Positions 27,762 to 49,678 of a DNA stretch of 64,000 nt are shown here, piece by piece (the first letter of the stretch is position 1; each line of letters opens with the position of its first letter). Where the stretch lies: positions 54,085 to 118,084 of IMG/VR virus record IMGVR_UViG_3300044623_000784, one strand, 5' to 3'. The notes under the pieces were generated by a model, which saw only the letters and a program-made list of their open reading frames with translations, did not search any database and had not been told where the DNA came from. This DNA is from a virus. Made by a program: the position numbers and the translations under genes.

Positions 27762-27784
27762 ACTAATTCAGTAATAGAATTAGT
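27762..27784 (-). terminator. Terminator ending the dioxygenase cluster
   Basis: 8-bp perfect stem ACTAATTC / GAATTAGT with a 7-base loop, overlapping the stop of the last dioxygenase gene and followed on the minus strand by TTTTT. It separates the dioxygenase operon from nrdJ. Confidence 0.75.
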
Positions 27785-28406
27785 GAATCCAGTGTTGCGG
27801 AACCATAATCTTTTCACCACTCTTGACTAAGTGTGCTGTGTGGTGATAAGGTGGTGATGGAGGAAATACAATAATACTTCCTGCTTTTGGCTTAACAAAA
27901 AAATCATAAGCATTTTTATCTGCATTTGCAAAATCTGAATCTGGAGTTGGACCCTGGATAGGACCCTTTGGATCTCTAATTGTAAAAGAGATTTCTCCAC
28001 CCTCATAATTATCATTAAGATACATTACAAAAGAAACCTTAAGTCTTTCGTCTCCTTCTTGCTGATCAAAGTGTGCACCCATAAATGTTCCTGCTTGATA
28101 CTTCTTGATTGGGTATTGAGGAAATAGTTTTGGCTCTTCAGTTATACCGTGGGCTGCTGCGTAGTCTCTTGCTACATCATCAAATGCTTTTTGCAAAGTA
28201 TTATAGATATACTTATTTTGTTCATCGGCATCTGGAGTGAGAGCAATAGTCTTATCTGTTCCGTAGACATAGTGCTGTCCGCTACATGCCATCCACTCTC
28301 CCCATTCATCCTTGTTGTCATTTTCAATTGCCTCAACAAGTTTCTTTGGGTCTTCAATTACATTTGTGTAGTAGTAAACCTTTTCTTCAAGTATTTCTCT
28401 GTCCAT
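27780..28406 (-). CDS. 2-oxoglutarate/Fe(II) dioxygenase (prolyl hydroxylase-like) 1
   Basis: 208 aa, double-stranded beta-helix type. Iron ligands: His112-x-Asp114 (GAHFDQ) and distal His192; Lys199 in KSGEKI probably holds 2-oxoglutarate in place of the usual Arg. VMYLNDNYEGGEISF and KPKAGSIIVFPP are the strand motifs typical of P4H-like enzymes. AAGGAGA precedes the ATG. It is the last gene of a run of dioxygenases and ends in a terminator. The target is unknown; the family hydroxylates Pro or Lys side chains, and some members act on other substrates. Confidence 0.88.
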   Translation of the reverse strand: MDREILEEKVYYYTNVIEDPKKLVEAIENDNKDEWGEWMACSGQHYVYGTDKTIALTPDADEQNKYIYNTLQKAFDDVARDYAAAHGITEEPKLFPQYPIKKYQAGTFMGAHFDQQEGDERLKVSFVMYLNDNYEGGEISFTIRDPKGPIQGPTPDSDFANADKNAYDFFVKPKAGSIIVFPPSPPYHHTAHLVKSGEKIMVPQHWIH

Positions 28407-28417
28407 TTTATATCTCC

Positions 28418-29080
28418 TTAAAATTTATTCTCTTCATAAAAACCTGTAATTTTTATAAAGCCTACTGTAACATAACGAATTGGTCCTTCTGTTACAAAAC
28501 GAACTCCGTGTTCATATTCTTCATTTCCTGGGAAAAGAAGTAATGTTCCTGGCTTTGGCCTTAAGTCTGAATTTTCTTTATTCTTAAAGAATAGAGTTCC
28601 ATCCTTATAGTCATCGTTGATATACAGTATAGCAGCATATTTAATCGATGGGTCTGTGTGTTGGTCTGTGTGAGACTTTAACTCAACTCCAGCCTGCATT
28701 CTCTGGAGTGTTCCAAATCCAGCAAGTTCTAGAGATGGATCTGCTAAGGTTAGAAGTTTTCCAAGTCTTAACTGAAGAGTTCTGCTAATCTCTTTATCTG
28801 TGATGTCTAGGTTTTTATCTTCCCAACCTTGAGTTATTTCAAACTTACCTTCAGCAACTAGGTTGTCAACATCATCTCGTCCAAACTTTTCCATACAAAA
28901 TCTAGCAAGATTCTTTGTATACTCGATTGACCAGTCTTCATTGGGCGTTATCTTGATTATGTCTAGCAACGTATCTAACTCATTGTCTTTTAAAAAGTCG
29001 TTAATAAATAAAACGCCATCGTGAAATACTTCGGTGTTATATCCTGCATCATCAAACTCTTTTTTTAAAAAGACTTCCAT
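28418..29080 (-). CDS. 2-oxoglutarate/Fe(II) dioxygenase 2
   Basis: 220 aa. Iron ligands His137-x-Asp139 (KSHTDQ) and His191 (YEHGVRFV); Arg202 for 2-oxoglutarate; strand motifs ILYINDDYKDGTLFF and KPGTLLLFPG. All catalytic residues are intact. The ATG directly follows the preceding stop. The N-terminal 115 residues (VLFINDFLKDNELDTLL) form the cap usual for P4H-like proteins. Confidence 0.88.
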   Translation of the reverse strand: MEVFLKKEFDDAGYNTEVFHDGVLFINDFLKDNELDTLLDIIKITPNEDWSIEYTKNLARFCMEKFGRDDVDNLVAEGKFEITQGWEDKNLDITDKEISRTLQLRLGKLLTLADPSLELAGFGTLQRMQAGVELKSHTDQHTDPSIKYAAILYINDDYKDGTLFFKNKENSDLRPKPGTLLLFPGNEEYEHGVRFVTEGPIRYVTVGFIKITGFYEENKF

Positions 29081-29827
29081 TTATAGGTCCTCCACCTTAT
29101 ACTTATTTCCATTAGCATCTAACTTCCAACCTTCTTTTAAAAGTTCTTGCCATTCGGCTCTTTCGATTTCTTGCTTGGCTCTAGTCTCTTTCATTTCTGC
29201 AGCCCAAGCATCTCTTAGTTCTTGCGGATAGTCTGACTCTTCTCTGTCATCCCAGAATGATCCAATAGTATATCTCACTCCGCTTGTAATAAGCGAGACT
29301 TCATGCATGTTGTTAAATCCGCCGTCAAACACTGCAAGCATTCCAACCTTTGGCTGAATCTCAATATTCTGATCTGGAAACCTTAATAGTCCACCTTCAA
29401 AGTTATCGTTTAGATAAAGAAATCCTGCATACCTACTTCTTGTAAATGCCCCAGAGTTTCCTTTCTCGTCAGTATTATCTGAATGAATTCTTGCATATGC
29501 TCCAGGTTCCCACTTTTGTGTGTGGTAACCAATCTTAGAAATTATTTTTGGATCTAAATCATGCACTGAGGCAATTGCTTCTGGCATCTTGCTTTCAATA
29601 TCTGAAAAGATTGTTGGCTCTAATCCAGCATCCAGGACTTCCTGATCATTATCTTGTGGAAGAACAGAGGAATATGACTCATAGAATGATATAGGCATCC
29701 AAGAGATTTTTCCGTTGTTTGCCTGAGCGTCTAACGCTTCTATCATTTTTTGACAAGTTTCTTCGTCAATAAAGTTTTCATAAACTACAATATCTTTTGT
29801 AATTCTTTTCTTGTTTTCTAGGTTCAT
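29081..29827 (-). CDS. 2-oxoglutarate/Fe(II) dioxygenase 3
   Basis: 248 aa. Iron ligands His115-x-Asp117 (RIHSDN) and His175 (NNMHEVSLI); Arg185 in SGVRYTIG; strand motif FLYLNDNFEGGLLRFP. The N-terminus has the P4H-like opening VVYENFIDEETCQKMIEAL. A charged C-terminal tail of about 50 residues (AWAAEMKETRAKQEIER) is extra compared with its neighbours and may be a coiled helix. ATGA overlap with the preceding gene. Confidence 0.88.
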   Translation of the reverse strand: MNLENKKRITKDIVVYENFIDEETCQKMIEALDAQANNGKISWMPISFYESYSSVLPQDNDQEVLDAGLEPTIFSDIESKMPEAIASVHDLDPKIISKIGYHTQKWEPGAYARIHSDNTDEKGNSGAFTRSRYAGFLYLNDNFEGGLLRFPDQNIEIQPKVGMLAVFDGGFNNMHEVSLITSGVRYTIGSFWDDREESDYPQELRDAWAAEMKETRAKQEIERAEWQELLKEGWKLDANGNKYKVEDL

Positions 29828-30684
29828 TTTATTCTCTTTTCTTTATCGGCATTCATTTTATTAGGATGGGCATCTCTAAACTTTTGCATAATATCTGGCT
29901 GCATTTCTTTCCAAACATCTTTTCCAAACTCAGCCTCTTTTTCAAACCACTCATCATCACCAATCTCATACTTCATCCAGTACATTCTGGAGATATACTT
30001 CTTTTCTCCTTTGGCTGGCATGACTCCATGAAGATATACTTGACCTTCTTTTGTTAGTATGTCTGGATGACCAGAAGGAAATATCAAGTAGTCTCCTGCT
30101 TCTGGCTTATACATATAGGCTTCTCCATCAACAATAAAGTCAATCTCTCCACCAGTATAATCATCATTAAAGTATGTTAAAGCAGTAATTCCAAACTTAT
30201 ATCCTGGGCTGACAATTGGCTCTCTAATAAAATCAGAGTGATAGGCCATTGCTAATGGGTCTTCTATATCTGTTTTATATCTTGCTATTGCTGGGCCATT
30301 AGTTGTCCACTGATTAAAAGATTCTCCTTCACGATTTACTAAGATTTTTTCTTTATCAAAATCAACATTATTCTTAAGTATGTAATCTTGTGTGGCTAAA
30401 TGAAAGTTTTCAAAGACTTCTAGCACTGCAACTTTTTGTGCTTCTTCTTTTTCTGTATTTGTTTTTATCTTCCTAATTTCTTCAATACTCATAGTGTGTG
30501 GATAATCTTTAAACAATGGATTCATGTACTCTCCGAAGTGAGACCACTTTGTCCAAGGACTAAAAATAGCATCTTCGCTTTCGTCTTTTAATATCTCAAG
30601 TGTCTTAGTGATATCCTTAAAAAGATTCTTGTATACAAATATCTTTGGATAAAGTTCAATATGCTCTAGGAGTTTTTCTGTCAT
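29824..30684 (-). CDS. 2-oxoglutarate/Fe(II) dioxygenase 4
   Basis: 286 aa from the ATG at 30684, chosen because it overlaps the preceding stop as ATGA and AGGAG lies 11 nt upstream; an earlier start would overlap the previous gene by 52 nt. Iron ligands His149-x-Asp151 (AYHSDF) and His219 (YLHGVMP), with basic residues 228-229 for 2-oxoglutarate; strand motifs LTYFNDDYTGGEIDF and KPEAGDYLIFPSG. It is the longest of the group, with a helical segment at about 65-115 not seen in the others. Confidence 0.86.
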   Translation of the reverse strand: MTEKLLEHIELYPKIFVYKNLFKDITKTLEILKDESEDAIFSPWTKWSHFGEYMNPLFKDYPHTMSIEEIRKIKTNTEKEEAQKVAVLEVFENFHLATQDYILKNNVDFDKEKILVNREGESFNQWTTNGPAIARYKTDIEDPLAMAYHSDFIREPIVSPGYKFGITALTYFNDDYTGGEIDFIVDGEAYMYKPEAGDYLIFPSGHPDILTKEGQVYLHGVMPAKGEKKYISRMYWMKYEIGDDEWFEKEAEFGKDVWKEMQPDIMQKFRDAHPNKMNADKEKRIK

Positions 30685-31355
30685 GGTTTTCTGTCTCCTG
30701 TGTGCTCTGTTATCTCCCAGAAGAATGGACATGTGTATCTAATACCACTCTTAATCTCTGTTACTCCGTGGACATAATTCATATCCCCTGGGAAAAAATA
30801 CGCTGCTCCCTTTTTAGGTTTAAACTGTACACCCTGTAATGGGAAGTATAACTCTCCACCTTCATAGTCCTCATTTAAATAAAATAGGCTTGAAAGATCA
30901 TAGTTTGGAAAATCATTTGGAAGTCCAGCATCTGGCCCTTCGTGCAGTTCCTTGTCTGCGTGAGGGTTCTGAAACTGGCCTGGAAGCCATCTGACGATAG
31001 TTGTCCCAGTAGGGGTAACCTTTACCTTATAGAACTCTTCAACGATTGGCTTAAGCCTTTGAAACAGGCCTGCGATTACTGGAGCGATTGTTGGATCATT
31101 TTTATCTAAAGTTGGGCTAGTGGCTACTCGATCTTTCCAGTACTCAGAGTCATATACAACTGTTCCGTTTTCGTTAACGTGGCTTTGAGTTACATCCCAG
31201 ATTGTCAAAGACTTTGCAGCCTTCTCTAAAAACTCTATTTCTTCTTGAGTCATAAAATTTTCTAACTCAACAATCATCTCTTTACCATTACCAAACCAGC
31301 CAGATGGCGTTAGTGACGGTTTTCTAATTACAACAGAAGCATCCATTTTGTCCAT
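30681..31355 (-). CDS. 2-oxoglutarate/Fe(II) dioxygenase 5
   Basis: 224 aa. Iron ligands His132-x-Asp134 (NPHADK) and His196 (YVHGVTEI); Arg206 in SGIRYTCP; strand motifs LFYLNEDYEGGELYFP and KPKKGAAYFFPGD. A -10 TATAAT (31367-31362) ends 6 nt before the ATG with no Shine-Dalgarno, so this gene probably begins a leaderless transcript carrying dioxygenases 5 to 1. Confidence 0.88.
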   Translation of the reverse strand: MDKMDASVVIRKPSLTPSGWFGNGKEMIVELENFMTQEEIEFLEKAAKSLTIWDVTQSHVNENGTVVYDSEYWKDRVATSPTLDKNDPTIAPVIAGLFQRLKPIVEEFYKVKVTPTGTTIVRWLPGQFQNPHADKELHEGPDAGLPNDFPNYDLSSLFYLNEDYEGGELYFPLQGVQFKPKKGAAYFFPGDMNYVHGVTEIKSGIRYTCPFFWEITEHTGDRKP

Positions 31356-31361
31356 AATTGA

Positions 31362-31370
31362 ATTATATCA
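31362..31370 (-). promoter_or_regulatory. Promoter for leaderless dioxygenase operon
   Basis: TGATATAAT on the minus strand with the ATG of dioxygenase 5 six bases on. A short inverted repeat (TAGGG / CCCTA, about 31371-31385) just upstream may end transcription of the preceding gene. Confidence 0.5.
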
Positions 31371-31382
31371 TAGGGTTTTTCC

Positions 31383-31838
31383 CTACAATGTCCTCTCTAT
31401 CTCTAGTTGTTTTAAGAATCTTTCTGTGTTGAATCTCCAATTATCTTTTGCAAAAGAAGTAACAATCTTAATACAGACATCCTCATAGTCTTTCTTGTCT
31501 AACTTATCCTTCAAAGAATGCAATGCTTCGACTGTATCAATATAGTTTTGCCTTACAAATGATGGATCTCCTGCGTGGTTTCTTTTTAAAACTTTTGTAT
31601 TGATTTTCCCAGATGGCTCATACATAGAAACTGTGAGGTAGTCTTTTGCAAAACCAGCATCTTGATACATTTCATAACCCTCTAAGGCCTGCTCTAGATT
31701 ATCAAAGGATATAATAGATCTTACAGGAGACTCTCCATCTCTTGAAACAGTTATCATGTAATGACCAACCTTTCCTTCTTTAGAACTTTTGATGTAGTCA
31801 TTAACTATATCAGAGTGTGTTGGATTTAATTCATTCAT
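31383..31838 (-). CDS. Unknown protein with a domain shared with a small early protein
   Basis: 151 aa, unrecognised. Residues about 25-90 (HYMITVSRDGESPVRSI to YEPSGKINTKVLKRNH) resemble the whole 72-aa protein at 59926-60144, sharing YLITC/YMITV, a central aromatic stretch, then TV-MY/LY-P-S/T-GK-TKV and R. The C-terminal 60 residues are helical and charged. ATGA overlap with the preceding gene puts it in the dioxygenase operon. Function unknown. Confidence 0.75.
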   Translation of the reverse strand: MNELNPTHSDIVNDYIKSSKEGKVGHYMITVSRDGESPVRSIISFDNLEQALEGYEMYQDAGFAKDYLTVSMYEPSGKINTKVLKRNHAGDPSFVRQNYIDTVEALHSLKDKLDKKDYEDVCIKIVTSFAKDNWRFNTERFLKQLEIERTL

Positions 31839-32551
31839 GATCTGCCCTGAGTTGTTTGATCTTCTACAATAAGTTTTAAAGTCTTTACTTCATGAGACCC
31901 TAGAGACTCTTGCTTTTCGTTAACAGCATTTCTATACCAGTCAGTCCATTCTCCAGTAGAGTTTAGAACTTGGGCTGCTTCACCATATGAGATGTTTGCT
32001 TCTACCCTTTTTCTGTCCTCATCTTTATAGTCAACCATTTTTATAACTGTGTTATTTAGTTGTGTCAAAGATATTGGAATAATTGTTGCAACTGGAGTTC
32101 CTGCTTTAATGACTATTCTTTTATTTGCTGTCTTTGCCTTAAGTGCTAAAGGGAAAGGGTTGTCATAGAAAGATGTGCTAATTAGTGAAGACATTGTCTC
32201 AAACTCATCACTAAAATAGTTTACTGGATTTATAGCAAACATGCTAACGTCAGTGTCTGTTCTAAATATCAATCCAGTGTCCATACTTATTGATGATTGT
32301 CCTCTACCAGAATACGCTCTTTCTGGACTAAATATTTTAACACGATCAGGAGTTTGATCGTTTATTCCGTCCCACTCAAACTCTATGTCTTCTTTGCAGG
32401 AAAGGCTATATCCAACTACGTTTGCTTGCGTTACTGGAAAGCATCTGTAGGCATGATTTTCTGAAGTAGCGTCCATCCAGTCTCTTTTAATAGACATAGG
32501 ATTAATTTCAAATATGCAACCTGGAGCCTTTTCTACTAAGATGTTATACAT
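31835..32551 (-). CDS. Unknown beta protein, partner of dioxygenase 6 (DUF6065-like?)
   Basis: 238 aa. It shares an architecture with the 259-aa protein at 33218-33997: an N-terminal CFP or CPA segment followed by GYSL/GYVL and IEF/LEF, a central P-N-F stretch, and IKAGTP/IPAGTP with a nearby P. I believe these resemble the DUF6065 family but cannot verify that. It directly follows a dioxygenase gene (TAATG overlap), in the same arrangement as its paralogue. Confidence 0.75.
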   Translation of the reverse strand: MYNILVEKAPGCIFEINPMSIKRDWMDATSENHAYRCFPVTQANVVGYSLSCKEDIEFEWDGINDQTPDRVKIFSPERAYSGRGQSSISMDTGLIFRTDTDVSMFAINPVNYFSDEFETMSSLISTSFYDNPFPLALKAKTANKRIVIKAGTPVATIIPISLTQLNNTVIKMVDYKDEDRKRVEANISYGEAAQVLNSTGEWTDWYRNAVNEKQESLGSHEVKTLKLIVEDQTTQGRS

Positions 32552-33207
32552 TAGTCTGTATCCGCAACATACATTTCTGGAGTGTGGAACTTTTTATTGT
32601 AGTCAAGCATAGTAACAATAGAGTATTTTGTTCCTGAATGTACTGGCATTGCACGATGAGGATACATGAATGTTGAAGGGAATATAAATAGATCTCCAGC
32701 CTCTGGCTTTACAGTCAAACCTTGTAATCTAAAGTTTAGTTCTCCACCATCGTAATCATCATTTACATAAGCAACAAGAGACACTGTACAGTTGTATGAG
32801 AAGCCGTGATCGTGGTGCTCTTGGAAGTGCTGGCCTGGTCCATACTTAATAAAGTTAAACGCTTCCCAGTACTTTAGTTCATGAATGTTGTGGATCTTGC
32901 AATAGTCTTCAACTGCTGGTGCCTGTGCGTCGTATACATCTTGCCACAGTTCCTGAAGTTTTAAACTTGTGGGGCTTTTATCATACTCTATATCTGTTTT
33001 CTTAAACTTAAAATCATTACAATCTCTATAATCTGGCATTAACTGCTTGTAGCCCACATACGCAGGTAGCCAAGCATATCCTGTGGTATCTCCTACAGGC
33101 TTAAGATTAGACTCTAGTCTATTAATAACATCAATTTCTTTTTTGATTACACCCTTGTAGCAAAAGATTCCATTGCCAAGGTCTTGCTTATCTGTCCATG
33201 TTTGCAT
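32551..33207 (-). CDS. 2-oxoglutarate/Fe(II) dioxygenase 6
   Basis: 218 aa. Iron ligands His131-x-Asp133 (EHHDHG) and His184 (YPHRAMPV); Lys194 (SGTKYSIV) replaces Arg; strand motifs VAYVNDDYDGGELNF and KPEAGDLFIFPS. It is a close paralogue of dioxygenase 7 (both have FNF-I/V-KY, SYNCTVS/AYNCTVS, SGTKY). It is followed at once by a DUF6065-like gene, forming the second copy of a duplicated two-gene cassette. Confidence 0.88.
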   Translation of the reverse strand: MQTWTDKQDLGNGIFCYKGVIKKEIDVINRLESNLKPVGDTTGYAWLPAYVGYKQLMPDYRDCNDFKFKKTDIEYDKSPTSLKLQELWQDVYDAQAPAVEDYCKIHNIHELKYWEAFNFIKYGPGQHFQEHHDHGFSYNCTVSLVAYVNDDYDGGELNFRLQGLTVKPEAGDLFIFPSTFMYPHRAMPVHSGTKYSIVTMLDYNKKFHTPEMYVADTD

Positions 33208-33217
33208 TATGTATTCC

Positions 33218-33997
33218 TTATCTATATTCTCTTCTTGACCAAACTTTGTTCTTATATACCCCGCCGTCTGGCTGTCTATAAGTTTTCATATTAGTAACCA
33301 TTCTATCATAAATTGTAACCTGATCCAATATTTCTATTTCATGATCCCAGTTTTCTCTTTTAAAAGGAAGAAACTGCATGTATGGCGTTCCTGCTGGTAT
33401 CAAGCCTTCCCAACCTTCGGCAACGAAAAATGGAAAAGTTCCTGGTATAGAAACTTTATCACTATCAATAATTCCAGAAGTATTTAGGAATGGCAAATCA
33501 AATCTATTCATAGGAGTCATAAACAAAGCACTATAGCCTTCTGGAAGAGAGACTTCCCAGTCTGGGTACCATGCAAAATGGTGTTGGTAAAACCCCTTTG
33601 GATGTTCAAACTGTGGCATTGGCGGTCTTTTTGTAACAAAGTCTTTATATTTTGGATCACTAATTTTGACATCAATTGTGCCCTGAGCATTTTTAAAAAA
33701 CTCTAAGTCACATGGAGTTTTTAAAACATATCCAGTTATAAAAGCATCAAGTATCGCTGGACAGGCTTTCCAGGTAGGAATTCTTCCATAATCATCATCG
33801 GTTCCTTCTTTAGGAAAAGGACAAGTTCCTTTGGGTGCTTTATAGTATTCTCCATTTGGCATTTTTGCAAATCTGTCAGCATCTTTATACCATTCTGGAA
33901 TTTCATTTTGAGTTGAAGTTGGTACAGATTTGCTGTCTTTGTTTAGCCATGCTCTGAATGATCTAAAGGTTGCTATATTGTATTTTTCATCACTCAT
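33218..33997 (-). CDS. Unknown beta protein, partner of dioxygenase 7 (DUF6065-like?)
   Basis: 259 aa, acidic/aromatic, with EIPEWYKDADRF near the start and PAGTPYMQFLPFKRENWDH near 210. It is homologous in layout to the 238-aa protein two genes downstream. Its start overlaps the stop of dioxygenase 7 (TAATG). Genes of this kind beside 2OG dioxygenases may act on the same substrate, but no catalytic residues are recognisable. Confidence 0.72.
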   Translation of the reverse strand: MSDEKYNIATFRSFRAWLNKDSKSVPTSTQNEIPEWYKDADRFAKMPNGEYYKAPKGTCPFPKEGTDDDYGRIPTWKACPAILDAFITGYVLKTPCDLEFFKNAQGTIDVKISDPKYKDFVTKRPPMPQFEHPKGFYQHHFAWYPDWEVSLPEGYSALFMTPMNRFDLPFLNTSGIIDSDKVSIPGTFPFFVAEGWEGLIPAGTPYMQFLPFKRENWDHEIEILDQVTIYDRMVTNMKTYRQPDGGVYKNKVWSRREYR

Positions 33998-34707
33998 TAG
34001 TGACTCAGTTCATTAATATCTGTCATAATGACTACACAATATTTTGTGCCTGACTTCATTGGAAGTGACGCATGCTCATAAATATAGTTTGAAGGAAATA
34101 CGGCAATATCTCCTACTCTTGGCTTATATACCAAATTATCTAATCTTGGAAACTTTAAGTCTCCGCCTTCGTAGTCATCATTAATATAGATTACAGCAGA
34201 GACAGTGCAGTTATATGCTGGTCCATGGTCAGCATGAATATTAAAATGAGTTCCTTCTCCTTCATACTTAACAAAGTTGAATGCTTCATAATATACAACA
34301 TTGATTCCCCAATATTGTGCATAATCATCTATACACATTTTTAACTTTTGATATATTTCTTCATGAAGATCAATTAGTTCTGCATTATGCTCATCTTTTG
34401 GCCCTAGATTTTCTTGCTTATATTTAAAATCTACACAATCTCTTGCTTTTTTAATTGGTGTTGTTGAGTTTGTTACTTGGGCTTCTGACCATTTGTATTT
34501 ACCTCCATGAGATAAGTTGGATTCAAGAACTCCTATGTATCTGTTTGCGTCTTCTAAAGAAAACGTGTCATGATATACATGTAAGCCCAAACCGAGGTTT
34601 TCAACACTAACGGTCTGATTCATTTGTCTTGTTGGAATTCTATTTGATGCTGTCTCTGATCTATCTTTTGTAAACCAGTGGTTTGAGTTTTCATCATATG
34701 CGCTCAT
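33997..34707 (-). CDS. 2-oxoglutarate/Fe(II) dioxygenase 7
   Basis: 236 aa. Iron ligands His158-x-Asp160 (NIHADH) and His212 (YEHASLP); Lys222 (SGTKYCVV); strand motifs VIYINDDYEGGDLKFP and KPRVGDIAVFPS. Closest paralogue is dioxygenase 6. It is the first gene of the dioxygenase cluster, with a promoter (TATGTTATAAT near 34733-34743) and AAAGGTAG ahead of the ATG. Confidence 0.88.
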   Translation of the reverse strand: MSAYDENSNHWFTKDRSETASNRIPTRQMNQTVSVENLGLGLHVYHDTFSLEDANRYIGVLESNLSHGGKYKWSEAQVTNSTTPIKKARDCVDFKYKQENLGPKDEHNAELIDLHEEIYQKLKMCIDDYAQYWGINVVYYEAFNFVKYEGEGTHFNIHADHGPAYNCTVSAVIYINDDYEGGDLKFPRLDNLVYKPRVGDIAVFPSNYIYEHASLPMKSGTKYCVVIMTDINELSH

Positions 34708-34759
34708 GGAAACTACCTTTCTTTGTTATAACCATTATAACATATACCTATAAAAATAT

Positions 34760-34796
34760 GCCTAAAACATTGAGTGGTAACTCTTTTGCTTTAGAC
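34760..34796 (-). terminator. Terminator upstream of the dioxygenase cluster
   Basis: Imperfect long hairpin: outer GTCTAAA / TTTAGGC and inner GAGT / ACTC around a 4-base loop, followed on the minus strand by ATATTTTTAT. It lies between the 143-aa gene and the cluster promoter. Confidence 0.6.
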
Positions 34797-34819
34797 ATAT
34801 ATTATTAAGATTTTTTATT

Positions 34820-35251
34820 TTATTCAACTAGAGTAAGGTTTGTTCCGTCCCAATTAAAGGTTTTTCCAACCTTATCAATTGGTTCAGTTTCAGTTTTTAC
34901 TAATATTGTTTCTCCATCAAAGGCTGCGTCAATCATTTCTATGTTAGAAGAATCTTTTGCAGCCGTAATTGAAAATACAACTTTATTGTCAGATAAGAAT
35001 ACATATCTATTAATTCCATCTAAATATTCCTGATCTACCGCTATATTAAGGTTTTCTCCAACAAATGAATTTCCGTCCCATACTGCCCCTCTTGTTGCAG
35101 AGGTTTTGTGTAGCGATGCATTCATACCAATAACTGGAAGACCAGCATCAAATGCTGCATCTATAACACTTGTATCTGCTAGGGAATAAGGATCTATTTG
35201 ATCTATTGCGTCCCAGGTGTTGTCACCATTTTTTGTTAATATAACGTACAT
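34820..35251 (-). CDS. Small structural protein with internal duplication
   Basis: 143 aa. Two similar halves: VIDAAFDAGLPVIGMNAS to AVWDGNSF and MIDAAFDGETILVKTE to FNWDGTNLTLVE. The WDG-x-x-LT-type ending is common in small phage virion proteins. Good AAGGAGAT ribosome site and -10 TATAAT-like box just upstream. It follows the Phe-Pro repeat protein; probably part of the virion surface set. Confidence 0.65.
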   Translation of the reverse strand: MYVILTKNGDNTWDAIDQIDPYSLADTSVIDAAFDAGLPVIGMNASLHKTSATRGAVWDGNSFVGENLNIAVDQEYLDGINRYVFLSDNKVVFSITAAKDSSNIEMIDAAFDGETILVKTETEPIDKVGKTFNWDGTNLTLVE

Positions 35252-35288
35252 AAAGTGTATCTCCTTTTATTATAGTATAGCATGTTCA

Positions 35289-36662
35289 TTAGTAGAAGCA
35301 GTTTCCACAGCATGGTGCTGTTGATGGGCAGTTCCACCATGGTCTATAACATGCTGGTCCGCAACCGCCACCGCCACCTGTGAAGTGTGGGAAGAATGGG
35401 AAGAACGGTGGGAAGAACGGGAAGAATGGTGGGAAGAATGGGAAGAACGGGAAGAACGGTGGGAAGAACGGGAAGAACGGTGGGAAGAATGGGAAGAATG
35501 GGAAGAACGGTGGGAAGAACGGGAAGAATGGTGGGAAGAATGGGAAGAACGGGAAGAACGGTGGGAAGAACGGGAAGAACGGTGGGAAGAATGGGAAGAA
35601 TGGTGGGAAGAACGGTGGGAAGAATGGGAAGAATGGTGGGAAGAATGGGAAGAATGGAGGGAAGAATGGGAAGAACGGTGGGAAGAACGGTGGGAAGAAT
35701 GGGAAGAAAGGTGGGAAGAATGGGAAGAAAGGTGGGAAGAATGGGAAAAATGGCGGGAAGAATGGAGGGAAAAATGGCGGGAAGAATGGAAAGAATGGGA
35801 AGAATGGAGCAATAGTAGTTACGCTAGTAGATTCAGCAGATGTTCCAGATGTTCCGTTAGCGTTTATTGCACGAACAGTATAGGTCTGTGCAGTATTTGC
35901 TTCTTGGGTAACTTCTACAGATGTTGCTCCTGTTGAATTGGTCTTACCATCTGATGCTGCCCAAACATAAGAAGTAATTGCACTTCCTCCATTTGATGGG
36001 GCTGTCCAAGAAACTGTATCCTTGTCTACTCCTGCTGTTGCTGTTGGGGCAGATGGAGTTGCTGGAACTGTTGTTGCTGTTATGGCGTTTGTTGTTGTTG
36101 CAGTAGATGTTCCGTTGGCATTTGTAGCAGTTACGCTAAATGTATAAGTAGTTCCACCTGTAAGAGATTGTACTGTTAGTGGTGATGCTCCAGATACTGA
36201 AGAAGCATTGTATGAAGATACTGTTTTTCCTCCGTTTACAGAAGATGCTGTAATTGTTGCTGCGCCATTTCCAAAAGCCCGTCCTGTTCCAACATTTGCT
36301 GCTGAAGCAGTAGGTGCTTGTGGTACAGTTGTTGCTAATACTCCAGCAGAAGCAGCAGAGGATGCTGAAGTTCCTGCAGCGTTAGTCGCTGTTACTGTAA
36401 ATGTTGGTGTTGCTGATGAGGAAATACCAGTTACAGTTAAAGGAGAAGATGCTCCAGTTGCTGTTTGTCCTGTGCTTGCTGTTACTGTAAAGGATGTTGC
36501 ATTAGGGGAAAGGGCTGGTAAAGAAAAAGATACAGATACTGCAGCATCATTAAATGCTCTACCTGTTCCAAGGTCTGTTCCAACAACATTGATTGGTGCT
36601 AATGGCTCCAAAAAGTCATTTGACGCTTGGGACTTCTTACCTATTCTCTTACCTGATGCCAT
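35289..36662 (-). CDS. FN3-like protein with long Phe-Pro repeat and Cys-rich tail
   Basis: 457 aa in three parts: about three fibronectin-III/Ig-like beta domains (residues 15-280; TYTFSVTATNANGTST, TYTVRAINANGTSG); roughly 150 residues of PFFPFFPPFF units (283-430); a Gly/Cys-rich end (GGGGGCGPACYRPWWNC, CCGNCFY) with six cysteines. I know no phage protein with such a repeat. Phe-Pro arrays could form a stiff polyproline-like rod or an adhesive hydrophobic fibre, and the prolines are candidate targets for the neighbouring prolyl-hydroxylase-like enzymes. There is an alternative open frame on the same strand (Ser/His-rich) that I reject because the FN3 frame is clearly coding. Confidence 0.8.
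   Translation of the reverse strand: MASGKRIGKKSQASNDFLEPLAPINVVGTDLGTGRAFNDAAVSVSFSLPALSPNATSFTVTASTGQTATGASSPLTVTGISSSATPTFTVTATNAAGTSASSAASAGVLATTVPQAPTASAANVGTGRAFGNGAATITASSVNGGKTVSSYNASSVSGASPLTVQSLTGGTTYTFSVTATNANGTSTATTTNAITATTVPATPSAPTATAGVDKDTVSWTAPSNGGSAITSYVWAASDGKTNSTGATSVEVTQEANTAQTYTVRAINANGTSGTSAESTSVTTIAPFFPFFPFFPPFFPPFFPPFFPFFPPFFPFFPPFFPFFPPFFPPFFPFFPPFFPFFPPFFPFFPPFFPPFFPFFPPFFPFFPPFFPFFPFFPPFFPFFPPFFPFFPFFPPFFPFFPPFFPFFPFFPPFFPFFPPFFPFFPHFTGGGGGCGPACYRPWWNCPSTAPCCGNCFY
35385..35815. repeat. 430-bp polypurine/polypyrimidine tandem repeat
   Basis: The plus strand is almost pure purine with GGGAAGAAT, GGGAAGAAC and GGT units in 9- and 12-base steps; the minus strand codes PFFP units. 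It is open in several frames on both strands because of its composition. GGG every 9-12 bases could also allow G-quadruplex or triplex DNA, and the repeat should be prone to length change by slippage. Confidence 0.85.
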
Positions 36663-43536: not shown

Positions 43537-44337
43537 TTATCTAAAATTAACTTCTGACTTAACCCCATCTGAGAAAGTGTAAGAAGGGAACCAGCCAAGA
43601 AGATCTCTGTTATCTATTTCTGATAGAACTGTTAGGTCTGGCAAATTTAAAACGGTATAAGTAATAGTAACACCATTAGCCTTATACTCGTTTACCAGAT
43701 CAATCATAGTAAACTGGTTTCCAGTAAAAATATCTGTAAGCAAAAAGTCGTTATCCTTAAGATACTCAATAGATAGTACATTGGCTTTTGCTATATCTAA
43801 AATATGGACATAGTCTCTTGTTGAAGAAACGCTATTAATGTTTATATTTGGATTTTTACTAATTATTGAAAATATGTTTCCACCTTGCTCATCCTTTATT
43901 TTGTCAGATTTTCCAACAATGTTAAAATATCTTAAAATAACAAGTTTTTTACATAAAATTTTTAATATTTTTTCTTCTAAAAGTTTTGATTTGGCATATG
44001 GGTTGTATGGATTATATATTGCTGCAGAGGATGCAAATATAACTGGTATATTTAAAACCTTAGAAACTAAAGCAACAGACAAGGTAGATCCTATATTGTT
44101 TAAATAATAAAGAATAGGGTTTTTTACAGACTCTGTAATTGATTTTTTAGCAGACAGGTGAATTATTGCTTTTGGTTTTTTTAAAGACAAACAAAATAGT
44201 TTAAATATGTTTCTTGTGTCATTGTTATTTTTTTTATCAAACTCTATAACGTTATATCCATTTTTTATTAAAAGTTCTTTTGTTGCTGATCCAACATAAC
44301 CAAATGATCCAGTCAAAACTACGCTAGCAGTTTTCAA
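43537..44337 (-). CDS. NAD-dependent sugar epimerase/dehydratase
   Basis: 266 aa, extended short-chain dehydrogenase fold. Nucleotide-binding TGSFGYVGS (9-17), FASSAAIY with the catalytic Ser region near 104, and the catalytic Tyr114-x3-Lys118 (YAKSK) are present, with RDYVHILDIAKA near 188. The family includes UDP-glucose and UDP-GlcNAc 4-epimerases; at 266 aa it is shorter than the usual 310-340, so the specificity is open. TTG start with GGTGA 6 nt upstream, overlapping the glycosyltransferase stop. It is Lys/Asn-rich and looks more AT-rich than its neighbours, a hint of separate acquisition. Probably supplies a sugar nucleotide to the adjacent transferase. Confidence 0.85.
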   Translation of the reverse strand: MKTASVVLTGSFGYVGSATKELLIKNGYNVIEFDKKNNNDTRNIFKLFCLSLKKPKAIIHLSAKKSITESVKNPILYYLNNIGSTLSVALVSKVLNIPVIFASSAAIYNPYNPYAKSKLLEEKILKILCKKLVILRYFNIVGKSDKIKDEQGGNIFSIISKNPNININSVSSTRDYVHILDIAKANVLSIEYLKDNDFLLTDIFTGNQFTMIDLVNEYKANGVTITYTVLNLPDLTVLSEIDNRDLLGWFPSYTFSDGVKSEVNFR

Positions 44338-45241
44338 CTATTTCACCATTTATAAAATCAAGCCCAGCAAATGTTCCATATTCTAGAAGAGTTCTTTCAT
44401 TTCCAAGCAACATATCTCCAACTGTTCCTTCTGTTAAAGTTTTATAGATTAATTGTTTAGATACTAAATCTAAACGGTTAAATTCATCAGGGTAGTCTGT
44501 CCAAAGAATCTTTCTCTTATTTATTTCACCTGCAATGTTGTGATTATAGTAAAGATGATACATATACTGCTCATCAGGAACTAATATGTCATACCCATGC
44601 GTGTAGGCCCTTGCTGCCAACCATATTTCTTCTCCGTAAAATGCAATGTCTGTGTTGAAAGGTAAAAATCCTTTAACAGTAAATATTGATCCTCCAGATA
44701 CTGACTTTACAAATCTATTTCCATCGAGGATCGGCATTGCTGTTTGTTGTGGAATTCTTGTTAGCCTAAACTGATCTGGCTTTTCATGAAATGAGATATT
44801 AGATAAGTGGCCAGGTGGTAGAAAATCTTTTTCTACAAACTTAGCGGTTGCAGATGGATACCAGTAATTTGCTGGGTACATTGTAAGAAGTGGTTTGTGA
44901 ATTCCCTGAATTTGATAATTTAAAACCGAGTTTATGGCAACTTCGTCCCAACCACTAATAAATCTAGAATGTGAGTCGCATTGAAGATAATAATCTTCGC
45001 CATCATAAAATTGATGAGCAAGGGCTCTTCCGATTCCCAAACCAATATTTTCTGGAGCCTTGCTTTCAGCATGCTTAACATTAGGCAAATCAGGAACATT
45101 AATCTCTGATTCATCTACATAAACTGTGTGAACACCAAAATTAATTGTGTGGTTCCCAGATGACTGCTTTATTGCATCTAGAATTGTAGGGGTTACCTCT
45201 AAATCTCTATATGCTGCTATCTGAACAAATATGCTGGCCAT
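44324..45241 (-). CDS. GlcNAc transferase, GT60-like (hydroxyproline GlcNAc transferase family)
   Basis: 305 aa. The opening IFVQIAAYRDLEVTPTILDA and the DSHSRFISGWDE motif (89-100, with Asp89/His91 as likely metal site) are hallmarks I associate with the GT60 GlcNAc family (PF11397), whose characterised member adds GlcNAc to a hydroxyproline on Skp1 in Dictyostelium. PFNTDIAFYGEEIWLAARAYTHGYD near 213 is the conserved acceptor-side region. It is coupled to the radical SAM gene before it (TAATG) and overlaps the epimerase after it. The substrate here is unknown; virion proteins hydroxylated by the dioxygenases are the natural guess. Confidence 0.75.
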   Translation of the reverse strand: MASIFVQIAAYRDLEVTPTILDAIKQSSGNHTINFGVHTVYVDESEINVPDLPNVKHAESKAPENIGLGIGRALAHQFYDGEDYYLQCDSHSRFISGWDEVAINSVLNYQIQGIHKPLLTMYPANYWYPSATAKFVEKDFLPPGHLSNISFHEKPDQFRLTRIPQQTAMPILDGNRFVKSVSGGSIFTVKGFLPFNTDIAFYGEEIWLAARAYTHGYDILVPDEQYMYHLYYNHNIAGEINKRKILWTDYPDEFNRLDLVSKQLIYKTLTEGTVGDMLLGNERTLLEYGTFAGLDFINGEIVENC

Positions 45242-46245
45242 TAGTCACCCCAAATCGCATGAACGCATGTTCTGCAGAAGTTTTCAAATGACTTAACTGT
45301 CATTAACTTATGCTCAATGCTCATCCATATATCGCTAATTGGCTTATCGTTTATATTTCCAAATACCGTTTCAAAATCGTAGTCATTACAACAAATAAAG
45401 GTGTCTCCATTAGCAGCAACGTGTAGCCATCCATTTGGTCTGCCACCTACTTCTCTTCCGTTACCACAACCAACTACTCTTTCCTTGCCTTTTTTCTCTT
45501 TGCTCTCAATAGCAGCCTTATTTGTAATAATTTGATGAGTATCTAAGTGACCATTTCTATCTACAAGGTATGGCATTTCGTATACTTGTAGTCCAGGAAA
45601 CTTTTCTCTCCAACCATTTGTCATTCTTGCAAGTAATCCAGTTTCAAGATCTATGTCCATTTCTGGAGCATTTTTTAACTGTTGAATCCAACCACCATAC
45701 TCTACAAGAGAATTTTTATTAATACCGTTTACTTGTATTGACATGGCTTTGCTTGTTACCATATCTGGCAACTGCTCTACCGCATATGTCACCTGCTCTA
45801 TTAATTTATCAAACATTTTTACGGGTTTTCCTGTTGCTTTTGCCCATTCTTCTGGATCTGATGCAGGAATATTAAAACAAATACCATGAACAACATCTTG
45901 ATATTCTCTAATAAGGTCAGTTCTTGCTTTAGTTAGTGGCGTTCCATTAGTTAACACAATGGTTCTTATCTTGTTTTTTCTTAAAACCTCTAGCATTTCT
46001 GGAAAGTACTTATAAAGAAGAACTTCGTTGTAGTGTGCCGTATATATAAAATCAAAATTATCAGAAACAAACGTGCCTTTACCTGCAACAAGTTGATTAA
46101 TAATGCTTTCAAAGGTTTCAATTGGCATATTTGTTCTTTGTGCCAAAGGATTTTCTGCATATCTTACTGGACAAAACCAACAGCCTACATTACAAAGACC
46201 ATTGGGGTCAATTTGTGCCATTGATATTTTGTATTGATATTTCAT
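45241..46245 (-). CDS. Radical SAM/SPASM enzyme
   Basis: 334 aa. CNVGCWFC (Cys18, Cys22, Cys25) binds the [4Fe-4S] cluster used to split S-adenosylmethionine. The C-terminal SPASM region has Cys residues in VVGCGNGRE, FICCNDYDF and FCRTCVHAIWGD for auxiliary clusters. Such enzymes modify peptides (maturases) or sugars. Its cassette contains a small Cys protein before it and a glycosyltransferase and epimerase after it, which suggests modification of a protein or glycan. Start is coupled to the 76-aa gene (TAATATG). Confidence 0.88.
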   Translation of the reverse strand: MKYQYKISMAQIDPNGLCNVGCWFCPVRYAENPLAQRTNMPIETFESIINQLVAGKGTFVSDNFDFIYTAHYNEVLLYKYFPEMLEVLRKNKIRTIVLTNGTPLTKARTDLIREYQDVVHGICFNIPASDPEEWAKATGKPVKMFDKLIEQVTYAVEQLPDMVTSKAMSIQVNGINKNSLVEYGGWIQQLKNAPEMDIDLETGLLARMTNGWREKFPGLQVYEMPYLVDRNGHLDTHQIITNKAAIESKEKKGKERVVGCGNGREVGGRPNGWLHVAANGDTFICCNDYDFETVFGNINDKPISDIWMSIEHKLMTVKSFENFCRTCVHAIWGD

Positions 46246-46246
46246 A

Positions 46247-46477
46247 TTACCACTTACCTATTGGACACTTGGCTGCTTCAAGTTTAGTTTTTATAGACAT
46301 AATGCATCCACACTTTTTGCATTGAGAGGTTAAAGAAATTAACTCTGGGCATGCTCTACATATTGACATTCTTGATGCTGCTAAATCATCGGCAGCATGT
46401 TTTGTCATTGGGTTTAGTAAGTCTAATGGAGTTACTCCATTTTTTTCTTTATATTTTTCCCATGCTGACTTTGACAT
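46247..46477 (-). CDS. Small Cys-rich (zinc-ribbon-like) protein
   Basis: 76 aa with CRACPELI, then CKKCGC and a final CPIGKW: five to six cysteines in a C-x2-C ... C-x2-C-x-C pattern that should bind zinc or an Fe-S cluster. Such small proteins often stand next to radical SAM genes in phage modification cassettes. It might be a partner or even a substrate of the SPASM enzyme. Its ATG has a GGGAGAA-type ribosome site. Confidence 0.75.
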   Translation of the reverse strand: MSKSAWEKYKEKNGVTPLDLLNPMTKHAADDLAASRMSICRACPELISLTSQCKKCGCIMSIKTKLEAAKCPIGKW

Positions 46478-46517: not shown

Positions 46518-46934
46518 TCACTCAGTGTATTGTGGCTGTGTTGGAGCCCAAGGAATTAAATCTGCCATGTCTCTATTCGTTATAGTAAATTTTTCTCCGT
46601 CAAAAGTGGCATTTGGAGATTGAACATATCTTCCATATGGGTAGTCTCTTAAATCAAGAACTAATGGATTGCTTAATAAGACGCTTCCAAAATATTCAGA
46701 AGTTTGTAATTCATTGATCATTGATCCATCTTTAATAAATCTAACTGTTATCCCGTCATGATTTGGATAACTTTGAGATACATCAATTACTGTATTGCTA
46801 GACATAAACATTTCTTTATATTCGTTCCATGTTGGTATATCATATATGCATTGTCCATCAATTACCCAAACTAACGGTACTCCATTTATACCGTCGTTTC
46901 CTCTAACAAACTGTATATCTATATCTGTTAACAA
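46518..46934 (-). CDS. Unknown virion-region protein
   Basis: 138 aa from a TTG at 46934, chosen because GGAGG stands 6 nt upstream and the TTG overlaps the stop of the Thr-rich gene (AATTGTTAA). The sequence (QFVRGNDGINGVPLVWVIDG, NATFDGEKFTITN) is beta-rich and has the FDGEKF-type end seen in small phage surface proteins. No known domain. Confidence 0.65.
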   Translation of the reverse strand: MLTDIDIQFVRGNDGINGVPLVWVIDGQCIYDIPTWNEYKEMFMSSNTVIDVSQSYPNHDGITVRFIKDGSMINELQTSEYFGSVLLSNPLVLDLRDYPYGRYVQSPNATFDGEKFTITNRDMADLIPWAPTQPQYTE

Positions 46935-49678
46935 TTGTATCCTCCTCCGAAACACCTATCAAATGGTGGGTTTGAACAACTTGCTCCGCTTCCACAGCCA
47001 GTACTACATCCAGTAGAAGCACAACATCCAATAGATACGTCAAACGATGTACAGGTTACCCCAGATGTTGGTGCTGCAGTTGTGGTTGCTGCAGTTGTGG
47101 CTGCAGTTGTGGTTGCTGCAGTTGTGGCTGCGGTTGTAGTTGCTGCGGTCGTAGTAGTTGTTGGTGCTGCAGTTGTAGTTGCTGCAGTCGTTGTTGTGGT
47201 TGGTGCTGGGGTCGTAGTTGCTGCAGTCGTTGTTGTGGTTGGTGCTGGGGTCGTAGTTGCTGCAGTCGTTGTTGTGGTTGGTGCTGGGGTCGTAGTTGCT
47301 GCAGTCGTAGTTGTTGCAGGAGCAAAATATGGGAAGAATGGAGGTGCTGCAGTTGTAGTTGTACAATTTGGCAATGCTGGTGCAGACCCTTGTTGATAAG
47401 TAATATTGCTTACGCCATCATAATTTCCACTTATCCAATTAGCAAGTGATGATTGAGTTGTAAAGGAAGATCCTCCGTCTGATATTGCAACTCCGTTTGT
47501 ACAGAATGAAGCAAACCATCCAGTTGCTGCTGTCGTAGTTGTTGTAGTTGTTGGTGCTGGGGTCGTAGTAGTTGTTGGTGCTGGCGAAGTTGATGCTGCA
47601 GTCGTAGTTGCTGCTGTCGTTGTTGTTGTAGTTGTTGGTGCTGCAGTCGTAGTAGTTGTTGCAGTAGTTACTCCACAACTTGCTGGTGAAACAGAAGGTG
47701 TATTTGATGTTCCTGCTGCACAGTTCCATCCTGAACCAATTTCTCCCATAGATGTCATTTCATTAAATATCGCACTACACGTTGTTCCTGCTTCAAACAG
47801 TGGTCCGACAACTGTTCCAGGACTATAACCTGCGCTTACGCTGCCACAATATGTGTACCAGACTCCTGATGTTACTGGTGCTACGGTAGTTGTAGTTGTT
47901 GTTGCTGCGGTCGTGGTTGTAGTTGTTGCTGGTGTTGAAGATGTAGTTCCTGGTGCGACTGTTGTTGTAGTAGTTGTAGTAGGATTACATCCAGTTGGTG
48001 TTGTAGAAACCCCACCCTGTGTAGTATTTCCTATTCCTGGCTCATCTGCATCACATGCAGCGTTTAGACCTGTTACTGCAGCACTACTGTTAGCGTAAGT
48101 TCCACTGACTCCTGCTCCATTAGTACAGCAAGCATAATAAGTTGTTCCTGTTGGTGCTGGAGTAGTTGTAGTGGTTGTAGTTGTTCCAGCACATCCAGTT
48201 GGTAGTGCAGGAGCAGATCCTTGCTGGTAAGTAACATTACTTACATTTTCATAATTACCATTTATCCATGCTTCAAGTGCTCCAACGGATGTATACTGAG
48301 ATCCTCCGTCTGTCATTGCAATTCCATTAGAACAGAATGAGGCAAAATATCCACTTGTTGGTGCAGCAGTTGTTGTTGTAGTCGTGGTTGTACTTGTAGT
48401 GACACCTGAAGGAACAGTGTAACTTATTGTTGAAGAAGCAGATGCTCCTTGTTGATTGTCAGAAGCATAAACAGTTAATGTTAAAGTATAAGTTGTTCCC
48501 TTGTTTGCCATTCCAAGGTATGCGTCAGTATCTGAGTTAGCATTACTTGTATAAGTGCTTCCATTAGCAGTTGAAGGAGACGCAGTTATTTGATAAGATG
48601 ATGCATTTGAATAGTTAAATATTGTCCAGATAGCCTGTTGTGTTTGTGTATCGGTACATCCTCCTACGTCAGGGTTTTCACACTGAGCAGAGAAAGAACT
48701 AATTGTTGGTGTAATTACTGGCGCTACAGTCGTAGTTGTAGTTGTTGTTGCTGCAGTCGTGGTTGTAGTTGTTGCTGGTGTTGAAGATGTAGTTCCTGGT
48801 GCGACTGTTGTTGTAGTAGTTGTAGTGGCTGGTGCTGGTGTTGAAGATGTAGTTCCTGGCGCTGCTGTAGTAGTTGTAGTGGCTGGCGCTGCTGTAGTAG
48901 TTGTAGTGGTTGTCGGTGCTGCGGTTGTAGTAGTTGCTACAGCAACACCTTCATATATATCTCCATACAAAACCCAACTATCTGTTGCAACTTTTATTAA
49001 AGTTCCCTTGCTATATCTTCCATCTAAGAATAATTGTGAATTTTTACTATTAATAGTCACACCAGATGCTGGAACAAAAGTTGTTTTTTCTGAACCAAAT
49101 TCAATAAAATGATATTGATATCCAACTGGAATTGCAACTGAAGAATTTAGCGGGATAGTTAAATTCATTGGTGAAGATGTTGACAAAAGAATAGTCTTGC
49201 TAACATCTGCCAACTCTAATGTAAAACTAGAATTTTTTGTAATAACTGTTGAGGTATTTGAAATGCTTGGCTCAAGATCAAATTGGAATGTTCCTGAGTT
49301 CCAGTCAATTCCAACTCCTGCAAGCGTTGACTGATTTACGGTAGAGTTATCTATTCCAGAATCAACATATGCTTTTGTTGCAAGAAGGGCTGTGTTTGCT
49401 ATTCCGTGAACATTTATTGTGGCTGCATTGTGTGCTGCGATGGCTGCATCTCTATTTACTATTTCTGCTGCGTCGGCATCTACAAGGTTTTGAAGGTGTT
49501 TTGCTATTGAAGGGGATACAAGGTTTGATGGTGTTGTATTTGCGCCATCATAAGTATAGGATCCATAGTGATATAGTCTGAGCGCTGCCTGAATATCGGC
49601 TGCATCTCCAAGACCTGGGATTTTGGCATTAAATAGTCCAGTACCATTAACGGTATTGTCAATATTTTCTGCTGCCAC
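46928..49678 (-). CDS. Mucin-like Thr-rich virion protein with Cys modules
   Basis: 916 aa from a GTG at 49678 (GGGTGAT-type site; TGGTATAAT promoter near 49705). Residues 1-250 are fibre-like, with one HGI repeat (NVHGIANTALLATKAYVDS) and the beta domain found at the C-terminus of the 618-aa fibre. The rest alternates long Thr/Ala/Pro linkers with four small Cys-containing modules; the first and fourth are near copies (GYFASFCSNGIAMTDGGS and GWFASFCTNGVAISDGGS, both with VTYQQGSAPALP or ITYQQGSAPALP). Near the end is PPFFPYFAP, echoing the Phe-Pro protein, then a tail with about 10 Cys. Thr/Pro linkers like these are O-glycosylated in other systems. Confidence 0.85.
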   Translation of the reverse strand: MAAENIDNTVNGTGLFNAKIPGLGDAADIQAALRLYHYGSYTYDGANTTPSNLVSPSIAKHLQNLVDADAAEIVNRDAAIAAHNAATINVHGIANTALLATKAYVDSGIDNSTVNQSTLAGVGIDWNSGTFQFDLEPSISNTSTVITKNSSFTLELADVSKTILLSTSSPMNLTIPLNSSVAIPVGYQYHFIEFGSEKTTFVPASGVTINSKNSQLFLDGRYSKGTLIKVATDSWVLYGDIYEGVAVATTTTAAPTTTTTTTAAPATTTTTAAPGTTSSTPAPATTTTTTTVAPGTTSSTPATTTTTTAATTTTTTTVAPVITPTISSFSAQCENPDVGGCTDTQTQQAIWTIFNYSNASSYQITASPSTANGSTYTSNANSDTDAYLGMANKGTTYTLTLTVYASDNQQGASASSTISYTVPSGVTTSTTTTTTTTAAPTSGYFASFCSNGIAMTDGGSQYTSVGALEAWINGNYENVSNVTYQQGSAPALPTGCAGTTTTTTTTPAPTGTTYYACCTNGAGVSGTYANSSAAVTGLNAACDADEPGIGNTTQGGVSTTPTGCNPTTTTTTTVAPGTTSSTPATTTTTTAATTTTTTVAPVTSGVWYTYCGSVSAGYSPGTVVGPLFEAGTTCSAIFNEMTSMGEIGSGWNCAAGTSNTPSVSPASCGVTTATTTTTAAPTTTTTTTAATTTAASTSPAPTTTTTPAPTTTTTTTAATGWFASFCTNGVAISDGGSSFTTQSSLANWISGNYDGVSNITYQQGSAPALPNCTTTTAAPPFFPYFAPATTTTAATTTPAPTTTTTAATTTPAPTTTTTAATTTPAPTTTTTAATTTAAPTTTTTAATTTAATTAATTTAATTAATTTAAPTSGVTCTSFDVSIGCCASTGCSTGCGSGASCSNPPFDRCFGGGYNC

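Follow-up and report, generated by a model that had tools for sequence, protein, structure and literature searches.

The 64,000-nucleotide stretch of viral DNA analysed here (the window) is part of the 118,084-base IMG/VR record IMGVR_UViG_3300044623_000784, and carries on its minus strand, from 46477 to 43537, a cassette of four open reading frames (ORFs). These encode a small Cys protein of 76 aa (46247..46477; DUF6171-like/phrog_13558, zinc-ribbon-like), a radical S-adenosylmethionine (SAM) enzyme of 334 aa (45241..46245; PF04055, E=1e-9; PF13186 SPASM, E=1e-8), a GT60-like polypeptide glycosyltransferase (GT) of 305 aa (44324..45241; PF11397 GlcNAc, E=2e-31), and a GalE-like nucleotide-sugar epimerase of the extended short-chain dehydrogenase/reductase (SDR) type of 266 aa (43537..44337; PF01370, E=3e-22). 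A first-pass annotation, made from the sequence of the window alone, had described these genes as overlapping or nearly touching and coupled, and both their boundaries and their coupling are confirmed: 1 nt separates the Cys protein gene from the radical SAM gene, the radical SAM and GT genes share a 1-nt overlap (TAATG), and the GT and SDR genes overlap by 14 nt, with TTG as the SDR start codon. The functional unit, however, reaches upstream past these coordinates to a gene for a 916-aa tail-fibre/adhesin protein on the same strand (46928..49678). The core pair of radical SAM enzyme and GT recognised in the first pass is conserved across loci (see below), but the likely substrate, a mucin-like fibre encoded upstream, had been overlooked. 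Between the fibre and Cys protein genes lies a small conserved gene (46518..46955, minus strand; 145 aa), an optional member of the locus for which neither a PHROG match nor a Pfam match above cut-off was obtained. We propose that the cassette is probably a phage-encoded mucin-type O-glycosylation system for the linkers of the phage's own tail fibre.

The fibre, which is the proposed substrate, begins with a conserved N-terminal domain (~48944-49678) common to other phages, followed by small Cys-rich modules that are separated by mucin-like Thr tracts such as TTTTTTTAAPATTTTTAAP (TTTTAAPTTTT type) in a linker region at 47078..48934 (minus strand). It contains 240 Thr residues in total, with 29 runs of at least three Thr and 60 TTTT words, and is the sole poly-Thr ORF of the whole 118 kb record. 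Thr/Pro/Ala-rich tandem tracts in a protein encoded near the transferase, as expected of a mucin-type acceptor, are therefore present at this locus. The Thr codons of the linker region are interspersed (ACA 56, ACT 55, ACC 19, ACG 17); a DNA microsatellite origin of the tracts was considered and rejected, since the mixture of all four Thr codons speaks against it. The likely acceptor at the window locus is Thr of the fibre linkers.

The GT scores 110 bits on the PF11397 profile (cut-off 21), which places it in CAZy family GT60; a PDB sequence search with the same protein returned no match. AlphaFold2 models of the GT and the radical SAM enzyme were built from alignments of phage homologues. 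The GT model has a GT-A fold (predicted local distance difference test, pLDDT, 92), and its 29 best aligned entries are all polypeptide GalNAc-transferases (ppGalNAc-Ts) (Z 18.3-21.5; root-mean-square deviation 3.1-3.6 over about 250-268 residues), with the next fold at Z 16.4; Foldseek agrees in retrieving ppGalNAc-Ts. The metal motif D89-x-H91 and the C-terminal H229 are invariant in 23/23 homologues and correspond to the ligands expected for GT27/GT60, two families that have in common the DxH motif and polypeptide Ser/Thr O-glycosylation (PMC7185993); a GT-A fold with DxH and a C-terminal His is the combination expected of GT60. Profile, fold and DxH motif are all in agreement with the GT60-like assignment made in the first pass. 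The enzyme appears to be a polypeptide O-glycosyltransferase, as predicted from the model, and we infer both its catalytic activity and its donor sugar. GT27 ppGalNAc-Ts provide the best structural match and share the metal ligands and a mucin-type Ser/Thr acceptor; however, they are eukaryotic, the window GT has no lectin domain, and identity is only 10-15%. GT60 members make GlcNAc-alpha-O-Thr in Trypanosoma cruzi mucins (PMC9472816), and the window GT resembles T. cruzi TcOGNT (CAZy GT60) in its PF11397/GT60 domain, DxH motif and Thr acceptors of mucin-like proteins (PMC9472816), although TcOGNT belongs to a eukaryotic Golgi system, is without a radical SAM enzyme, and is encoded separately rather than in an operon with its substrate.

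Many phage GTs act on DNA or the host surface, and phage glycosyltransferases are usually read in this way (e.g., PMC10202952), including those of Nanopelagicales phages (PMC10202952). Under such a reading, the GT and SDR would serve to alter the DNA of the phage or the surface of the host (for anti-restriction or superinfection exclusion) and the adjacency to the fibre would be incidental; we regard this as quite improbable, given that GT60 and ppGalNAc-T enzymes of known activity act on polypeptide, and that the type of acceptor tract covaries with GT60 presence and clade. This covariation is apparent when homologues of the fibre N-terminal domain are fetched independently of the enzymes and combined with fibres from other searches. 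Across the resulting 52 distinct homologous fibres with at least 3.5 kb downstream, GT60 was encoded next door to 8/8 Thr-linker fibres vs 6/44 Pro-linker fibres (p=4e-6), and the Thr fraction of the fibre tail separates loci with GT60 from those without (area under the curve 0.93, p=3e-6). The switch is visible among close relatives, as a single clade of the fibre tree includes L004 (Thr, GT60, radical SAM), L138 (Thr, GT60), L137 (Pro, oxygenase, without GT60), and L139 (Pro-Thr, GT60 and oxygenase). When the search was started from GT60, the upstream gene had a tract in 55 of 66 distinct loci (poly-Thr in 42, Pro-Thr in 13); of 101 lineage-related loci without a GT60 match of at least 150 bits, four were poly-Thr, and all four have a divergent GT60.

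Several observations weigh against the proposed glycosylation system. Thr linkers switched approximately five times on the fibre tree, which provides three independent pairs on well-supported branches; with so few independent switches, relatedness inflates the Fisher p-values, although the direction is consistent, in that none of the three pairs is contrary and a relatedness-corrected test agrees in direction while remaining below significance. Half of the Thr fibres (4/8) are without a radical SAM enzyme, both GT and tract are lacking at five of 47 radical SAM loci, and the SDR is missing from many loci. Poly-Thr ORFs in unrelated viral contigs also often occur without a recognisable GT (L387, L402, L431), and poly-Thr alone is therefore not predictive of a GT. 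A reverse survey covered 80 viral contigs with an (ACN)8 run, of which ~56 encode at least seven consecutive Thr within an ORF; the unrelated GT of more distant phages (see below) was found in seven of the latter (directly adjoining the poly-Thr ORF in five), and GT60 with radical SAM in one. The scarcity of independent switches, together with a tail island that is clearly exchanged as a block, is also what would be seen if low-complexity linkers and enzymes were merely co-inherited within a hypervariable tail island, without the linkers being substrates of the enzymes. We consider such hitchhiking improbable, because linker chemistry, and not linker presence alone, corresponds to the class of enzyme (GT60 for Thr, GT60 and oxygenase for Pro-Thr, oxygenases for PPFFP), non-homologous GTs are repeatedly found next to the poly-Thr ORFs of other phages, and the Thr tracts are mixed-codon.

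A search with the radical SAM enzyme gave 59 viral loci (100-47% identity), in nearly all of which GT60 adjoins the radical SAM gene, down to about 45-50% identity. The Cys protein is encoded upstream in nearly all of these loci (sometimes with intervening genes) and the SDR in about half of them or more; the epimerase included in the first-pass cassette is therefore coupled at the window locus but is an optional member across loci. The refuting outcome named in the first pass, independent occurrence of the genes in relatives with no conserved association, was thus not what this gene-neighbourhood survey gave for the radical SAM and GT60 genes, and their adjacency, which had been noted at a single locus, is conserved. 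For 47 distinct radical SAM loci the surrounding sequence was sufficient for scoring: a Thr or Pro-Thr tract coincides with a GT in 40, two encode a GT but no tract, five lack both, and a tract was never seen in the absence of a GT (Fisher p=1e-5); given the five loci that lack both, the radical SAM enzyme is not bound to glycosylation everywhere. Its state changes ten times on the GT60 tree, and it therefore behaves as an add-on. Neither the radical SAM enzyme nor the GT of the window has a tblastn match among INPHARED cultured phages, and no relatives of the radical SAM enzyme were found in a scan of cellular genome contigs, a weak negative given the strict patterns used.

The PF04055 and PF13186 matches to the radical SAM enzyme are both above Pfam cut-offs, as is the PF01370 match to the SDR, and the CxxxCxxC motif that defines the superfamily is present and invariant (C18, C22, and C25). 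Four or five Cys residues are conserved in the C-terminal region (C260, C285/C286, C324, and C327; invariant in 24/24), and the seven-Cys motif for the two auxiliary clusters of a full SPASM domain is absent despite the PF13186 match. Because only four or five Cys are conserved after the core, the C-terminal sequence suggests a one-cluster twitch domain rather than a full two-cluster SPASM; the SPASM label applied in the first pass is thus accurate with respect to the Pfam match, but the Cys count fits a twitch. The nearest solved relative in a PDB profile search is BtrN (E=4e-11), which is also the best fold match to the AlphaFold2 model (pLDDT 86; Z 17.8, next 15.7), so that one-cluster ligands coincide with a BtrN-like fold. 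BtrN, from butirosin synthesis, is a radical SAM dehydrogenase of the twitch type that oxidises an aminocyclitol, a sugar alcohol (PMC9012708). The two enzymes are alike in profile, fold and the single auxiliary cluster; however, BtrN acts on a free aminocyclitol, whereas the phage enzyme is longer and is genetically tied to a protein glycosyltransferase.

In the proposed system, the GalE-like SDR, which has the motifs TGxxGxxG and YxxxK and is presumed to function in donor supply, would supply or adjust the UDP-sugar pool. After fibre synthesis, the GT60-like enzyme would place the first sugar on Thr residues of the TTTTAAP linkers, with UDP-GlcNAc or UDP-GalNAc as the donor. The radical SAM/twitch enzyme would then tailor the same product, most likely by oxidising the sugar in the manner of BtrN, or otherwise by a change to the linker peptide; we hold tailoring of the glycan at a little short of even confidence, and tailoring of the linker peptide as possible but rather unlikely. 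For the latter, the enzyme would epimerise, oxidise or cross-link Thr, and the GT would decorate or skip the changed residues. The peptide and protein modifiers SkfB, SuiB, ChlB, anSME, and EpeE are close behind BtrN in fold (Z 12-16), an extra invariant Cys (the C285/C286 pair) could serve as hydrogen donor, and a radical SAM gene without GT but with oxygenases nearby occurs in two kinds of locus (L024/L025/L303 and L339), one of which has PPFFP repeats. We nevertheless doubt a peptide substrate, as the best relative by both sequence and fold is a sugar-alcohol dehydrogenase (PMC9012708), no additional leader-binding domain is apparent in the 334-aa protein (core fold only), and the radical SAM enzyme accompanies a GT in 42/47 loci and is fused to one in several. 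The outcome of O-glycosylation, by analogy with mucins and glycosylated linkers in general, would be stiff, extended, protease-resistant stalks between the Cys-rich binding modules of the fibre.

The small Cys protein had been suggested as a possible partner or substrate of the radical SAM enzyme, and its gene is indeed directly upstream of, and coupled to, the radical SAM gene. This arrangement would also be expected of a system for ribosomally synthesised and post-translationally modified peptides (RiPPs), with the Cys protein as precursor, the SPASM-type enzyme as maturase, and the GT glycosylating the product. However, the protein has six invariant Cys (CxxC..CxxCGC..CPxxKW) and is conserved along its C-terminal half, which is not a leader/core layout. 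It follows the fibre gene in 48/52 homologous loci whether or not a radical SAM gene is present, and occurs in 63 INPHARED phage records, none of which has a match to the window radical SAM enzyme; in L036, L037, and L041, its gene and the radical SAM gene are not adjacent, with one to several others in between. A RiPP maturase system was rejected on the basis of this conservation and wide distribution, and we consider it highly improbable. Because the Cys protein accompanies the fibres irrespective of radical SAM, it belongs, as judged from sequence, to the fibre locus generally and is not a dedicated substrate of the radical SAM enzyme. It matches phrog_13558 (E=7e-17), and its score against DUF6171 (PF19668), 23.2 bits, is below the gathering cut-off of 27. 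A second copy is encoded elsewhere in L010, L011, L014, L019, and L026. Across large phages, including T4-like cyanophages and Rhizobium and Stenotrophomonas phages, a six-Cys zinc-ribbon-like protein ending in CPxGKW is widespread, and its gene contexts vary.

The GT60 tree includes one 100%-supported clade of 16 that holds all Pro-Thr loci except L139, and nearly all members of this clade encode a 2-oxoglutarate-Fe(II) (2OG-Fe(II)) oxygenase between the Cys protein and the radical SAM enzyme; all other tract-bearing branches are poly-Thr. The transferase had been called hydroxyproline-type in the first pass, a description that fits this Pro-Thr sister branch with its oxygenase but not the window locus, where Thr is the likely acceptor. 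In the Skp1 pathway of Dictyostelium and Toxoplasma, a prolyl-hydroxylase and the GT60 enzyme Gnt1 act on a single hydroxyproline of a cytosolic protein. The likeness is the combination of GT60 with a 2OG-Fe(II) oxygenase on Pro, which matches the Pro-Thr branch, whereas the tracts of the window locus are of Thr and its cassette lacks an oxygenase. By analogy, the Pro-Thr branch looks like the hydroxyproline logic of Skp1 prolyl-hydroxylase/GT60, and the branch of the window GT looks like the mucin logic of T. cruzi (PMC9472816). We had considered the oxygenases to be exclusive to Pro linkers, as the strict hidden Markov model threshold gave 0/8 Thr vs 28/44 Pro fibres with an oxygenase, but the choice of threshold matters and this claim was withdrawn: 4/8 Thr fibres have a small divergent oxygenase below that threshold.

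A second repeat-type fibre is encoded in the window (35289..36662, minus strand; 457 aa), with a fibronectin-like start and a long PPFFPFFP tract. Downstream of it, at 27780..34707, are seven 2OG-Fe(II) oxygenase genes (33997-34707, 32551-33207, 30681-31355, 29824-30732, 29081-29827, 28418-29080, and 27780-28406), with a DUF6065 gene (31835-32551) within the run, all on the minus strand. This island (27780-36662) looks like a fibre-hydroxylation island, and a single genome thus has two fibres with two repeat chemistries and two enzyme sets. L024 and L025 share the PPFFP-fibre island, there with a radical SAM gene and without GT60. In L037 (3708-4202), a PPPIIAT-repeat fibre is followed by several oxygenase-like and JmjC-like genes, and then by radical SAM and GT60. 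At L146 and L242, the fibres are Pro-rich and neither GT60 nor the main oxygenase is present; other genes downstream encode an SDR, an unassigned protein, and an oxygenase-like protein with the motif HKDDNACTY, which suggests further linker-enzyme pairs. A 754-aa Pro-rich protein is encoded elsewhere in the record of L477 (11665-13926, minus strand).

More distant relatives of the radical SAM enzyme, reached by profile search, are encoded in phages in which the radical SAM domain either neighbours an unrelated GT-A-like transferase or forms a fusion protein with it, with a poly-Thr ORF just upstream (L331, L332, L335-L338, L343, and others). Natural fusions of the two enzymes directly downstream of a poly-Thr ORF were observed in L331, L332, L336, L342, and L343. 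This transferase has no Pfam match, and its putative designation as a GT is based on a DxD-type motif and on the phage homologues to which it is related. The radical SAM partner in L341 and L351 is a GT2 (PF00535 in L351). The distant radical SAM enzyme of L335 has no tblastn match in INPHARED. The distant GT60 of L127 was found there in three jumbo phages only (26%), and no poly-Thr ORF adjoins it in the two that were examined.

Virion glycosylation is already known in mycobacteriophages (Freeman et al., 2023, as cited in PMC12691614 and PMC12619734), as is GT60 mucin glycosylation in protists. As described in those citing papers, mycobacteriophages likewise place glycans on their own virion proteins, at capsid and tail-tube C-termini, whereas the window phage has mucin-like fibre linkers, GT60 and radical SAM. 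The open-access literature searched, of which coverage is incomplete, held nothing matching phage mucin-type glycosylation, radical SAM enzymes with protein glycosylation, or fibre prolyl hydroxylation; the combination of GT60, the phage's own mucin-like fibre and radical SAM in a phage operon was not found in that literature. Thr-rich tracts that receive mucin-type O-glycans have been described mainly in eukaryotes; with the mucin-like fibre, the likely substrate, encoded two genes from the cassette, the window would hold a compact version from a bacterial virus. It would also provide a testable function for many mostly unannotated phage GTs and 2OG-Fe(II) oxygenases that are now read as DNA- or host-modifying, and it brings to light a new family of radical SAM enzymes for which a specific substrate can be hypothesised, and of which none was seen in the cellular genomes scanned with strict patterns.

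More tentatively, these loci may represent a fibre-modification code, in which the interchangeable low-complexity linkers of modular tail fibres (poly-Thr, Pro-Thr, Pro-Val-Ala, PPFFP) are each encoded with matching enzymes (whether GT60, another GT or 2OG-Fe(II) oxygenases), and a new twitch radical SAM family tailors the protein-bound glycan. If so, the phage of the window would carry two such islands, and the radical SAM step would, to our knowledge, be the first in protein O-glycosylation.

Poly-Thr or Thr-rich proteins and the unannotated GT family that is linked to radical SAM in distant phages were also observed together in other phages. In the cultured Chryseobacterium phage MA9V-3 (L481; PV245944.1), in which no radical SAM gene was recognised, two poly-Thr ORFs are located just upstream of a member of this family (3609-6915). 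In Enterococcus phage 9183 (L482; 6001-6870 and 8575-9195), a homologue of the unannotated GT is encoded between head and head-tail genes, and the major tail protein has a Thr-rich C-terminal tail, ATTTDPVTTTSTTRQ.

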